From a bacterium (GTDB lineage Bacteria > Joyebacterota > Joyebacteria > Joyebacterales > Joyebacteraceae), in the NCBI GenBank assembly GCA_025774245.1, contig JALGWI010000016.1, positions 1-49,612 of the forward strand: a DNA stretch of 49,612 nt, in the 5' to 3' direction. This document shows positions 45,341 through 49,612 of this stretch, in pieces; the stretch's first letter is position 1; each line of letters begins with the position of its first letter. The notes under the pieces are model-generated. The model was not told the origin of the DNA. It saw only the letters and a program-made list of their open reading frames with translations, and did no database searches. The position numbers were made by a program, and so were the translations under genes.

Positions 45341-45877
45341 ATGGAGAAGTGGTACGAACTCGAGCCGGAGATCGCGCGTATCGCGGCGAGACTCACTCCC
45401 GATGAGATGCTCCGACAGGATCTCGCGCAGGAGATGAGGATCGATGTCTGGCGGGCTCCCGAGGGGAAGACCAAGGGCTGGTACCTCTCGAGCGCGCGCT
45501 GGCAGGCGGTGAAGTTCATGAGCCGGACGGCGATCGATTGCCCGGACGGCGACATGGGCCGCCAGATGGTCCTCTACGGGGTGCTCGGGGACGTCGATCC
45601 GGAGGTCCTGAGGTACATCCCCACAGAATGGCACGACATCCTGCTCACGACGCCGATCGAGGTCGTGCCGGATGCCTTCGCACTCTCTGTCGAGGTGAAC
45701 GACACCCTGGAGCAGCTCACCCCGCGTCAGCAGCAGATCGTCTACGCGATAGCGCAGGGATTCACGCAAAACGAAGTGGCCGAGGCGCTGGCCATTTCCA
45801 GGCGCACGGTGGCCAACGAACTGGCCAGGATCCGGGCCGCTTTCAAGGACCTCCACGGGGAGCTCCACCCCACGTAG
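45341..45877 (+). CDS. sigma-70 region 4-type regulator
   Basis: 178 residues. The C-terminal about 60 residues form a sigma-70 region 4 or LuxR-type HTH (LTPRQQQIVYAIAQGFTQNEVAEALAISRRTVANELARI). The N-terminal about 110 residues are unlike sigma region 2: they start MEKWYELEPEIARIAARLTP and include DLAQEMRIDVWRAPEGKTKG, similar to the -10 binding part of ECF factors only in one place (QEMRIDVW). It may be a very divergent ECF sigma factor, a phage-type sigma-like protein or a regulator. No anti-sigma gene is adjacent. It is followed by an inverted repeat and a strong terminator. Confidence 0.75.
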   Translation: MEKWYELEPEIARIAARLTPDEMLRQDLAQEMRIDVWRAPEGKTKGWYLSSARWQAVKFMSRTAIDCPDGDMGRQMVLYGVLGDVDPEVLRYIPTEWHDILLTTPIEVVPDAFALSVEVNDTLEQLTPRQQQIVYAIAQGFTQNEVAEALAISRRTVANELARIRAAFKDLHGELHPT

Positions 45878-46049: not shown

Positions 46050-46985
46050 CTAACCGGCGTCGCCCGGGGCGGCGCCGCCGCGCCAGATCTCCGCCAATCC
46101 CGCGCGCTCCTCGTCGCGGAGTTTCGCCGTGCTCGGCCGGTCCTCGTCCTCGGCCAGGAACGGCTCCTCCTCCCTGACGAAGAGCGACACGACCGCGTTC
46201 AGCGCCCGCTCCAGTGACACCCGATCCGAAACGACGATCGGATTCTCACTCTGGTCTCCGGGCAACACGGTGAAGCTGCCGGAGGAGACCGTCACGCGCG
46301 CCAGCGGTCGTCCCCTGAGCGCACAGACGATTGAGTCATCGGCGGTGAGCTGGGAGATGCGGCTGTCGAGCCCGTCGACCCCGGACCGGAAGAGGTCGAG
46401 CAGCATGCGGACGGTGTCCGACTCAACCGTCTCTTCCGTTCTCGTCTCTTCCGGCTTCGTCTCGATCGGCGTCCGCGAGCCGTCGTCCGCGTCGTCGGTC
46501 GGTCGGACGACGACGGTGCCCTCCCGCGTGCCTCCGTCCGGCGTGACGTCTTCGAGGAGCACCTCGCCGGTCCCGTTCACGAGGACGTAGTCCGCACGCA
46601 CGAGTCTGGCGTCGATCCCCTCCATCGCGCCCACGGCCCGCATCACGCCCGACGGGAAGCCCGCCGCGACGAACACGAAGGCCGGGCTCCCGGTGTTCCG
46701 GACGCCCTCCTCCGCGTACGCCTTGAGGAAGAGCCTCTTGTTGCTTTCGAACCAATCCAAATGGTCGAAGATGAGCGTTGGGACCTCTAGTGGCCTCTCC
46801 AGTACGATGTCAACGAACACGGGCCTGCCGTCGCTGTCGGCGATGATCAGATCGATCCCTGTCGGCCCCTGGGCATCGGCGTCGATGAGCCTCGCTCCCT
46901 GGCAGATCTGGTCGGCTCGCTCTCCGAGTAACTTCCGGAGCACCGCCAAATCAGGGAGCGACGAACGTTCGATGCGCGTCTTCAT
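46050..46985 (-). CDS. possible PD-(D/E)XK-type protein of the ParA cluster
   Basis: 311 residues. The N-terminal part (about 1-140) has the pattern of a nuclease-fold core, GIDLIIADSDGRPVFVDIVLE: an Asp (G-I-D) and then F-V-D-I-V, where an E/D-x-K would be expected in active PD-(D/E)XK enzymes but Val replaces Lys. A helix with FDHLDWFESNKRLFLKAYAEE follows. An acidic linker (about 150-180) joins a C-terminal domain (about 185-290) of unknown type. It is the last gene of the three-gene operon with two ParA/MinD-type ATPases, 46 bases from its neighbour. No function is assigned. Confidence 0.75.
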   Translation of the reverse strand: MKTRIERSSLPDLAVLRKLLGERADQICQGARLIDADAQGPTGIDLIIADSDGRPVFVDIVLERPLEVPTLIFDHLDWFESNKRLFLKAYAEEGVRNTGSPAFVFVAAGFPSGVMRAVGAMEGIDARLVRADYVLVNGTGEVLLEDVTPDGGTREGTVVVRPTDDADDGSRTPIETKPEETRTEETVESDTVRMLLDLFRSGVDGLDSRISQLTADDSIVCALRGRPLARVTVSSGSFTVLPGDQSENPIVVSDRVSLERALNAVVSLFVREEEPFLAEDEDRPSTAKLRDEERAGLAEIWRGGAAPGDAG

Positions 46986-47031: not shown

Positions 47032-47955
47032 TCACTGTCCCACCACGATCTCGAGCGCTCTTGACGACACCTCTCGGAGCTGCAACGCGGCCACCGCATC
47101 CGGGCGCGACCGCACGATAGCCCCCCGCTCTCTCTGCTCGCTTCCCAGGCGCGGCTGAAGCACGACCCCGCCGAGGAAACGTACGTCCAGTGACAACAGA
47201 CGCCGCGCGGCCGTCTCGATCTTCTCGGCCGCCTCACCGGCGTCGCTCAAACTCCGAACCATGTTGAGAACGAGCCCGACCCTCTCGATGCCAAGCCCTG
47301 TCCTGAGGGTCGAGAGGGCGGCGTACGTCTCTTCGAAGCCCGCCCGTCCCGCTCTCGCGACCACCACGTAGAGGCCCACCCGTCCGGCCACTGGCGCGAT
47401 CCACGGCGCCCGGGTGACGGGCAGATCGAAGACCAGGTGGTGCAACGGCACCCGGCCGCCGCCCGAGATGTCCACGTACGCCACGCCCCCGGAGCCAACG
47501 AGGTTCCCGGGACCTCCGCCGCCTGCGGCCCGATCCACGACCACGAGCCCCGAGTCCGACAGCGTGTTCGGCGCCGACCTTCCCTCGCCCGTCACGGGCG
47601 AGAGGTAGTGCCAGGACGGGAGTCCGAGATAGAACCGCGCGTTCGGGAGCTTCGGATCGGCGTCGACGATCCCGACCCGGCCCCGCGACATGAGCGCGTG
47701 GGCCAGGTTGATCGCCACCGTCGATTTGCCGGGCGAGCCGTCGGCGCCCGTGACGACGAAGAGCGTCGTCCGGTGCCAACGTCCCGAGTCTTCGCTGGGA
47801 TCAGTCAGAAGGGGTGTGCCCGTGCCGCCCTCGTGCGAGGACGACGACTCGGGCCCTGCCGTCGGGGCGTGCGGCTGCTCTTCACCCCCGGAGAAGAAGA
47901 GGTGGGAGACATCCGCGAGCGTCTTCGGAGACTTCTTGCCGGTGTCTTCGCTCAT
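47032..47955 (-). CDS. MinD/CpaE-like ATPase with deviant Walker A
   Basis: 307 residues. After a Ser/Gly-rich N-terminal tail (about 1-58), a ParA/MinD fold begins: VTGADGSPGKSTVAINLAHAL (residues 69-88) is a Walker A loop in which the signature Lys (KGGxGKST) is replaced by Asp (D-G-S-P-G-K-S-T). The Walker A' is VGIVDADPKLPNA and the switch II strand is HHLVFDLPVT. Similar deviant loops occur in CpaE and BcsQ proteins, which act in localisation or secretion rather than as DNA partition ATPases. A poorly conserved C-terminus follows. It lies between the PD-(D/E)XK-like gene and the ParA-CBM48 gene. Confidence 0.85.
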   Translation of the reverse strand: MSEDTGKKSPKTLADVSHLFFSGGEEQPHAPTAGPESSSSHEGGTGTPLLTDPSEDSGRWHRTTLFVVTGADGSPGKSTVAINLAHALMSRGRVGIVDADPKLPNARFYLGLPSWHYLSPVTGEGRSAPNTLSDSGLVVVDRAAGGGGPGNLVGSGGVAYVDISGGGRVPLHHLVFDLPVTRAPWIAPVAGRVGLYVVVARAGRAGFEETYAALSTLRTGLGIERVGLVLNMVRSLSDAGEAAEKIETAARRLLSLDVRFLGGVVLQPRLGSEQRERGAIVRSRPDAVAALQLREVSSRALEIVVGQ

Positions 47956-48016: not shown

Positions 48017-49138
48017 TCAATCGCGGCGGTAGACCTCGACGATGCAGTCCTCGTTCGGGGCTGCTCTGTTCTCGTTGGCGGGATCCGGAACCCAGATCCC
48101 GTCGATCACGAACTTGTAGAGATGCCTGCCGGGACCGATGTCGACCGTGGTGTGCCAGACACCGTTGTCGCTCCTGGTGAGCCTGACCCCGTCCTCGCGC
48201 TTCCAGTCGTTGAAGGTGCCCACGAGCTCCACGTCGTTGGCCTCGGGAGCGACGAGGGAGAACAGGACGCCCCCCTCGACGAAGTGCGGGCCGGGCTGCG
48301 AGAGGATCCACTCGTCCATGCCCGGCTCGAGCCCCACATCCTGGACCTCCACCACCGGCTCGAACTCGCCGGCGGCAAGGCGCTCCTCGTCGGCGATGAC
48401 TTCCCTCGACAGGTCCTTGTAGTCGCGCGCGCCGCCGCAGCTCTTGGCGTAGTGCGAGATCGACACGCCCCAGTTCGCGGCCTCCCGGAACCGGACCGTG
48501 TGACGGATGACGGTGTCGAACATCTCGCGGCCGAAGCGGGTCTGCGCCTCGCGCAGGAACTCCTTCGCGAACCGCGTCCTCCGGTCGAACATTGTAAGGA
48601 CGACCTTCGTGCGCTTCCGCATCCCCAGTTGATCCCGGACCAGGCCGATGGTCTCCACGATCTTGAGGGCGCCGTGGAGCGAGAAGTACGAGGGCTCGAG
48701 CACCACGAAGGCTTCGTCGCACGCCACGAGCGCGTTGAAGGTGAGGAGCCCCACGCTCGGCGGACAGTCGATGAACACGTAGTCGTAGTCGTCGCTCGCG
48801 GCTGCGATCTTCCGCCTGAGCCGATTCTCGCGATCCGGCTGGCCGGAGAGCTGCTGTTCCACGGCCGAGAGGATCACGCTGGAGGGCGCGACGTCGAGCC
48901 GGTCGGTCACCGTGTGCACCACGTCCCTGATCTGCACGACAGGATCCATGAGCACGTCGTACGTGGATCGTTCGAGCTCGTCCGTGTCGATCCCCAGACC
49001 GATCGAGGCGTGCGACTGCGGATCGCAGTCCAACAGCAGCACCCTCTTGCCCGAATCGGCGATGCAGGAAGCGAGGTTCACTGCGGTCGTGGTCTTCCCG
49101 CAGCCCCCCTTCTGGTTCACCAACGCGATCGTCCGCAT
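48017..49138 (-). CDS. ParA-type ATPase fused to CBM48 glycogen-binding domain
   Basis: 373 residues from the ATG at 49138 (GGAGGGG upstream). Residues 1-235 are a full ParA/Soj ATPase: K10-G-G-C-G-K-T-T Walker A, LLLDCDPQ as A' and IDCPPSVGLLTFNALVAC as Walker B; the RAANWGVSISHYAK segment is ParA-like. Residues about 291-373 form an E-set module like CBM48 or the AMPK beta glycogen-binding domain: VLFSLVAPEANDVELVGTFNDW, GVWHTTVDIGPGRHLYKFVIDG and W-V-P-D-P. ParA ATPases distribute cargo such as DNA, carboxysomes or protein clusters on the nucleoid; a sugar-polymer-binding tail suggests that the cargo may be a glucan granule. This is inference. Confidence 0.92.
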   Translation of the reverse strand: MRTIALVNQKGGCGKTTTAVNLASCIADSGKRVLLLDCDPQSHASIGLGIDTDELERSTYDVLMDPVVQIRDVVHTVTDRLDVAPSSVILSAVEQQLSGQPDRENRLRRKIAAASDDYDYVFIDCPPSVGLLTFNALVACDEAFVVLEPSYFSLHGALKIVETIGLVRDQLGMRKRTKVVLTMFDRRTRFAKEFLREAQTRFGREMFDTVIRHTVRFREAANWGVSISHYAKSCGGARDYKDLSREVIADEERLAAGEFEPVVEVQDVGLEPGMDEWILSQPGPHFVEGGVLFSLVAPEANDVELVGTFNDWKREDGVRLTRSDNGVWHTTVDIGPGRHLYKFVIDGIWVPDPANENRAAPNEDCIVEVYRRD

Positions 49139-49396: not shown

Positions 49397-49448
49397 GCGA
49401 CTGACTCTCAAGATGGAGATTCTTACACCTTGAGGAAGGGAGGGTTCC

Positions 49449-49612
49449 ATGCGCGTGCCAGTGCGGCTCATGCTGCTGACGTCGTGTGTGCTGTTGCTGT
49501 TCCTGGCGGCCTCTCCGGCGGCGGCCACGGACATCGGCGACCAGCTGTCTGCGTACGGCGAGGACAACGCCAAGGGGTACCTGCAGCCACTCGTTGACGC
49601 CATCGGCGTCGA
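49449..49612 (+). CDS. secreted protein, N-terminal part only
   Basis: The first about 54 residues of a gene that runs off the window. The ATG at 49449 has GGGAGGG a few bases upstream. A signal peptide (MRVPVRLMLLTSCVLLLFLA then ASPAAA) precedes a mature start T-D-I-G-D-Q-L-S-A-Y-G-E-D-N-A-K-G-Y-L-Q. This resembles the start of DUF6588-type outer-membrane proteins, but too little is present to be sure. Confidence 0.65.
   Translation, partial: MRVPVRLMLLTSCVLLLFLAASPAAATDIGDQLSAYGEDNAKGYLQPLVDAIGV

Follow-up and report, generated by a model that had tools for sequence, protein, structure and literature searches.

A ParA ATPase fused to an AMPK-beta-like carbohydrate-binding module forms an ancient subfamily with a putative link to alpha-glucan

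ParA systems place chromosomes, plasmids, carboxysomes, chemotaxis clusters and flagella, and in the classical cargo systems of this family the cargo is held by the partner and not by ParA. The locus described here raises the question of what a ParA might do with a carbohydrate-binding module (CBM) in its own chain. The gene, which we refer to as parA-CBM, lies on the minus strand at positions 48017..49138 of the window (the whole 49,612-nucleotide stretch of DNA that was analyzed), in a MAG of a small phylum. Its coding part, 48020-49138, begins with an ATG at 49138, is followed by a stop codon at 48017-48019 and specifies 373 amino acids, a length that is kept in full in 17 family relatives. 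The coordinates of the original prediction were correct, and we add the strand, which it did not give; a plus-strand frame at the same positions is a spurious ORF that overlaps the minus-strand gene. (Note that a divergent gene starts upstream of parA-CBM on the plus strand, at about 49420-49612; its N-terminus looks signal-peptide-like by eye, and the gene is cut by the contig end.)

The original prediction described a complete ParA and a CBM48/AMPK-beta-like module in one chain, and this description holds: the motifs KGGCGKTT, LLLDCDPQ, IDCPPS, VELVGTFNDW and LYKFVIDG are all present, and both domains are matched by Pfam. In particular, residues 1-255 (48374..49138, minus strand), which contain KGGCGKTT, DCDPQ and IDCPPS, form the ParA ATPase domain (AAA_31, 3e-52, residues 1-171; CbiA, 3.3e-21). 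A partly disordered linker, residues 256-283 (48290..48373, minus strand), leads to the CBM48/AMPK-beta-like domain at residues 284-373 (48020..48289, minus strand), which is matched by AMPK1_CBM (3.6e-10, 40.4 bits against a curated cut-off of 26.8, residues 299-356) and by CBM_48 (4.9e-10, 40.0 bits against a curated cut-off of 22.4, residues 283-348). An AlphaFold2 model built with 47 relatives has a mean pLDDT of 90.3 and consists of two folded domains joined by a flexible, low-confidence linker (pLDDT below 50 at residues 263-273).

The fusion recurs far beyond chance. It was found in 18 of 20 genomes of the window's phylum, including all 13 with at least 90% completeness and at most 5% contamination; the 17 family relatives are 72-85% identical to the window's protein, and in distant lineages the fusion is found at 36-45% identity over the full length. 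Among the 285 sampled Omnitrophota genomes, 188 match strongly, and the matches listed include at least 143 that are full length and reach across the CBM; in some further Omnitrophota members the match is broken up by a longer linker. Named genomes were also scanned, and two Planctomycetota, Abyssobacteria SURF_17 and further MAGs proved to have this architecture. The search for the same fusion elsewhere that the original prediction proposed finds it in the window's phylum and in several other lineages. Moreover, when only the ParA domain was used for a maximum-likelihood tree, the 47 fused proteins all fell into one clade, with branch support of 100/98 against a group of 11 canonical ParAs. 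An assembly or annotation artefact is rejected by this single clade together with the recurrence across genomes and lineages, and repeated recent fusions are not favoured by the same tree with its 11 canonical ParAs. The single clade and the wide distribution indicate that the fusion is old and has been retained, and that the fused ParAs are an ancient, distinct subfamily of single origin.

The ATPase half of these proteins retains the features of a ParA. K10 and K15 (the signature and catalytic lysines of KGGxGKT), D37 and D39 (A' Asp) and D124 (the Walker B Asp) are invariant in 47/47 fused proteins, and the ParA part of the model superposes on solved Soj/ParA structures (8ray, 2bek and 9a6n) with a TM score (target) of 0.94-0.95. 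Basic residues predominate across the 47 fusions at positions 187 (R in 45/47), 216 (R/K in 42/47) and 218 (R/K in 44/47), which may correspond to the DNA-binding arginines of Soj. A role in defence was rejected, as ParA-CBM matched the PADLOC models weakly and only through the ATP loop (best 2.1e-6), and the two genes that follow it gave no match.

Turning to the CBM, its nearest solved relatives by sequence are AMPK beta-1/2 (4yef, 3.8e-7; 1z0m, 4.3e-7), and the likeness is based on sequence alignment together with the secondary structure of the whole-protein model. W312 (48203-48205), K342 (48113-48115) and W349 (48092-48094, all minus strand) align with W100, K126 and W133 of AMPK-beta, mutation of any of which impairs glycogen binding (PMC2642990, PMC6274970); the glucan-binding Trp and Lys whose loss the original prediction had named as telling against it are present. 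Across the 47 fusions both Trp are found in 47/47, and the K342 position is K in 24, R in 20 and Q in 3. Trp conservation does not by itself prove glucan binding, however, because the pair is a general hallmark of this CBM family: in 162 other CBM hits, a control set that was itself retrieved with a pattern derived from the domain of ParA-CBM, the W312 position is Trp in 100% and the W349 position in 97%. Moreover, the AMPK-beta L146/T148 loop is shortened by about 4 residues and replaced in the window's family.

The original prediction spoke of an operon, and there is indeed one of three genes, which starts with parA-CBM and is conserved across lineages. In the window's phylum parA-CBM is followed in conserved order by gene 2 and gene 3, and all three are also found at seven loci of some Omnitrophota and of other lineages (L073, L076, L077, L079, L080, L083 and L084). 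Gene 2 (47032..47955, minus strand) encodes a ParA-like protein of 307 amino acids, the presumed partner of ParA-CBM. Pfam gives only CbiA/ParA-like matches for it (CbiA, 4.9e-9) and no ParB domain. It is homologous to gene 2 elsewhere, with the N-terminal motif included in the alignment (window's phylum against other lineages, hhalign prob 98.2, E 2.9e-14), and it is related to the ParA-CBM profile (prob 85, E 6e-6); outside the window's phylum its Walker A motif is lost, and it is often a pseudo-ATPase. Gene 3 (46050..46985, minus strand; 311 amino acids) has a NucS/EndoMS-like N-terminal fold. It is homologous to gene 3 of other lineages (hhalign prob 97.9, E 4.4e-13), a model with a pLDDT of only 68 matches 5gke (Foldseek E 6e-4), and the homologue in L079 matches Pfam NucS_C at 0.015. 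We rejected an active nuclease, since gene 3 has a conserved D45...D59-I-V without the E/D-x-K catalytic pair; going by the sequence and this moderate model, it is apparently a degenerate nuclease-like protein that has lost its catalytic residues. (Note that a small ECF-like sigma factor gene at 45341-45877, plus strand, converges on the operon (Sigma70_r4_2, 2.6e-9; NCBIfam sigma70-ECF); another 13 loci in the window's phylum have it in the same place, at 62-84% identity.)

Near its N-terminus the gene 2 product carries a ParB-like motif, KKLGRGLEDISHLFLS. The general form of this N-terminus is (K/R)K-LG[RK]GLEDISHLFLS, and the form in the window's phylum is SPKTLADVSHLFFS (residues 9-22; 47890..47931, minus strand), a presumed ParA-docking peptide. 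When the 20 genomes of the window's phylum were searched with degenerate DNA, 15 had the motif at the parA-CBM loci, once per genome and in gene 2 only, save for one genome with an extra copy at a contig end; a reversed control pattern gave no matches in the same 20 genomes. In other lineages the motif is not confined to gene 2. In three Omnitrophota loci it recurs, as LKRLGKGLKDISHLFLS and close variants, in a DUF4912 protein encoded next to a GH57 branching enzyme (L079 5384-6919, L076 4209-5891 and L077 13185-14723); the L079 protein matches DUF4912 at 1.2e-36 and has a glucodextranase-B-like tail, and a literature search on DUF4912 found nothing related. In two more loci, as FEDISHYFLS (L085 10742-11440) and FKDISHYFLS (L051 5841-6578), it heads otherwise unrelated cysteine-containing proteins next to ParA-CBM, which are presumably a third kind of partner. 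Charged N-terminal peptides give ParA/MinD (A/D) ATPases their partner specificity and are the usual partner interface (PMC10241942), and the N-terminal motif of ParB suffices to bind and stimulate ParA (PMC12462528). A short motif that has moved between different bodies, always beside one ATPase, behaves like a docking peptide, and by this analogy we infer that it docks on ParA-CBM.

The core of the motif, LG[RK]GL, resembles the ParB-type N-terminus LGKGLGALIP, and together with a ParA fold closest to Soj this resemblance is what would be expected if ParA-CBM were a second ParA for chromosome or plasmid segregation, with the CBM a vestigial or structural add-on. We regard this as highly improbable. 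That ParB-type N-terminus itself (MNRKALGKGLGALIP) begins the neighbour of a separate, canonical ParA in the window's genome (G000:C61). Because the genome thus has another ParA adjoining a ParB-like gene and gene 2 has no ParB domain, canonical ParABS was rejected for the operon; moreover, the fused proteins stand in a clade apart from canonical ParA, and the CBM has been retained with both Trp throughout.

Gene 2 is absent from most of the Omnitrophota loci that were fetched, and many have instead a predicted membrane protein immediately upstream of parA-CBM (L195 1713-2288, L217 8294-8869 and about 20 other Omnitrophota loci). No Pfam family matched this protein. Its N-terminal tail is basic (IYEHLAKIYLD...KKKK), its C-terminal part is beta-rich, and one TM segment is apparent. 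Thus the partner varies by lineage, and the cargo may vary too. A changing partner beside a constant CBM is also compatible with ParA-CBM being a sensor that moves nothing, in which the CBM would read the alpha-glucan level and gate dimerization or ATPase activity of ParA, and so control another process such as division, sigma-factor-driven expression or envelope work. The CBM is on the ATPase itself and not on the partner, the operon of the window's phylum is faced by a conserved gene for an ECF-like sigma factor, and there is a precedent in AMPK, where glycogen and oligosaccharides act as an allosteric signal through the AMPK-beta domain (PMC2642990). We nevertheless think this account rather unlikely, given that no regulatory target was identified and that cargo adaptors would account at least equally well for the ParB-like motif that gene 2 shares with a DUF4912 protein encoded beside a branching enzyme.

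Genes for alpha-glucan enzymes recur near parA-CBM in three arrangements. In a first group of Omnitrophota, two genes lie downstream on the same strand: one, 5-9 kb from parA-CBM, for a GH57 whose C-terminal domain is of the branching-enzyme type (BE_C, 3.6e-38), and one for a DUF4912 protein that has a glucodextranase-B-like domain. In a second, a different GH57 (5e-60) lies about 2.2 kb upstream; at L217 the order is GH57, membrane protein, ParA-CBM, with gaps of 35 and 11 nt. In the window's phylum, seven loci have, upstream of parA-CBM (about 6 kb away in the window's genus), a GH13 amylase that carries a CBM of its own, with the metalloprotease pair TldD and PmbA in between (L042 6383-9226 and equivalents); the amylase was not found at L043 and L047, and its expected position lies beyond the end of the window's contig. 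A GH57 neighbour was seen in 16 of 37 fetched Omnitrophota loci, on the same strand in 16/16, and no GH57 was found nearby in the other 21, some of which have short flanks. Omnitrophota genomes with this neighbour have only 2-4 GH57 copies each, and a GH57 lies within about 9 kb of parA-CBM in 10 of 13 Omnitrophota genomes, some of which were chosen after the neighbour had been seen. Loci of one group are related to each other and so are not independent counts; the fact that three unrelated alpha-glucan enzymes occur in three arrangements argues for a functional link. Glycogen synthase is present in the window's genome and in 257 of 285 Omnitrophota genomes, where its co-occurrence with the fusion is uninformative because it is near universal.

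The claim of the original prediction that the domain could tether glycogen or another alpha-glucan therefore stands in part. The domain reading and the GH57 and GH13 neighbours speak for it, and the neighbours support it independently of the CBM sequence; the lost L146/T148 loop, an R or Q at the K342 position in 23 of the 47 fusions and the generality of the Trp pair speak against it. These neighbours also bear on whether the system might instead serve the envelope or an extracellular polysaccharide, organizing an inner-membrane or export machine, with a CBM that would bind some other glycan or a protein surface. In the window's phylum the GH13 amylase is apparently secreted, to judge by eye from its hydrophobic N-terminus, and so would not obviously pair with an ATPase of the cytoplasm, later neighbours in L075, L078 and L082 resemble polysaccharide-biosynthesis genes by eye, and the membrane protein directly upstream in many Omnitrophota combines a basic, cytoplasmic-type N-terminus with a beta-rich C-terminal part. 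By contrast, no signal peptide is evident by eye in the GH57 enzymes encoded nearby, and one of them has the branching-enzyme domain, which points to internal alpha-glucan, and we consider a role in the envelope quite improbable.

Taken at the level of sequence and gene context, it seems to us somewhat probable that ParA-CBM belongs to a spatial or switch system of the ParA type that is devoted to alpha-glucan, in which the CBM would bind the glucan and a partner would carry the ParB-like peptide. We infer glucan binding, nucleoid binding, activation by the peptide and a biological output in the following scheme. The ATP-bound ParA-CBM dimer would sit on the nucleoid via its basic residues, and its two CBM domains would tether it to alpha-glucan (glycogen or maltodextrin) or to glucan-bound enzymes. 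The gene 2 peptide LG[RK]GLEDISHLFLS would dock on the dimer, trigger ATP hydrolysis and release the dimer; in one group of Omnitrophota the motif of the DUF4912 protein beside the GH57 branching enzyme would dock on it as well. The output might be a ParA switch under the control of the glucan store, or else glycogen particles or glycogen enzymes might be distributed in a way that is coupled to the nucleoid. The more specific reading, a positioning machine, which takes up the suggestion of the original prediction that the operon may position storage granules, we advance tentatively, as a possibility: in the window's phylum and much of Omnitrophota, ParA-CBM would tether glycogen particles or enzymes to the nucleoid and hand them on via a ParB-like peptide common to several partners, for even inheritance of the carbon store at division. 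By analogy with known systems, which put the cargo on the partner, the position of the CBM on ParA itself counts against an alpha-glucan system of this kind.

ParA-CBM resembles chromosomal ParA/Soj of ParABS in its deviant Walker A fold, its motifs and a presumed partner with an LG[RK]GL N-terminal peptide, but differs in its C-terminal CBM, a partner without a ParB domain, its separate clade and its alpha-glucan neighbours. Like McdA-McdB, ParC-CheW and FlhG (PMC10241942), it appears to be an orphan ParA with an adjoining presumed partner that has a basic N-terminal peptide, and its cargo is likewise read from the neighbourhood; unlike them, it carries the putative cargo- or ligand-recognition domain itself. 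BcsQ, the ParA/MinD protein associated with cellulose synthase, is also a ParA-superfamily protein tied to a polysaccharide, and ParA-CBM gives a weak match to its profile (63 bits against an NCBIfam cut-off of 158 bits), whereas BcsQ lacks a CBM and serves cellulose secretion and not alpha-glucan. Glycogen has 0 mentions, and alpha-glucan is not among the cargos discussed, in a treatment of ParA/MinD systems (PMC10241942), and the open-licence literature that we searched contained neither a ParA with a glucan-binding domain nor an active system for glycogen distribution. If alpha-glucan is the ligand, it would be a new class of cargo, or a new input in the form of a sugar store, for the ParA family; DUF4912 and a widespread operon of uncultured bacteria would gain a first functional lead, and bacterial control of glycogen inheritance would become directly testable using just two small pieces, the CBM and the peptide of gene 2. 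ParA-CBM may thus be an unrecognized system that links cell organization to sugar stores.

The AMPK beta-subunit shares the domain family and the equivalents of W100, K126 and W133 with ParA-CBM, and it provides the precedent for such a domain both anchoring a signalling protein on glycogen and sensing the glycogen. The differences are that in ParA-CBM the module is attached to a ParA, that the L146/T148 loop is lost in the window's family and that glucan binding is a prediction. Matches to AMPK1_CBM are not limited to this protein in the window's genome, which has nine (contigs C65, C85, C92, C99 and C102; L001-L008), most of them in non-ParA proteins. Two of the nine flank a GH57 match on contig C92, and the one at C65:1162-1413 contains an internal TGA.
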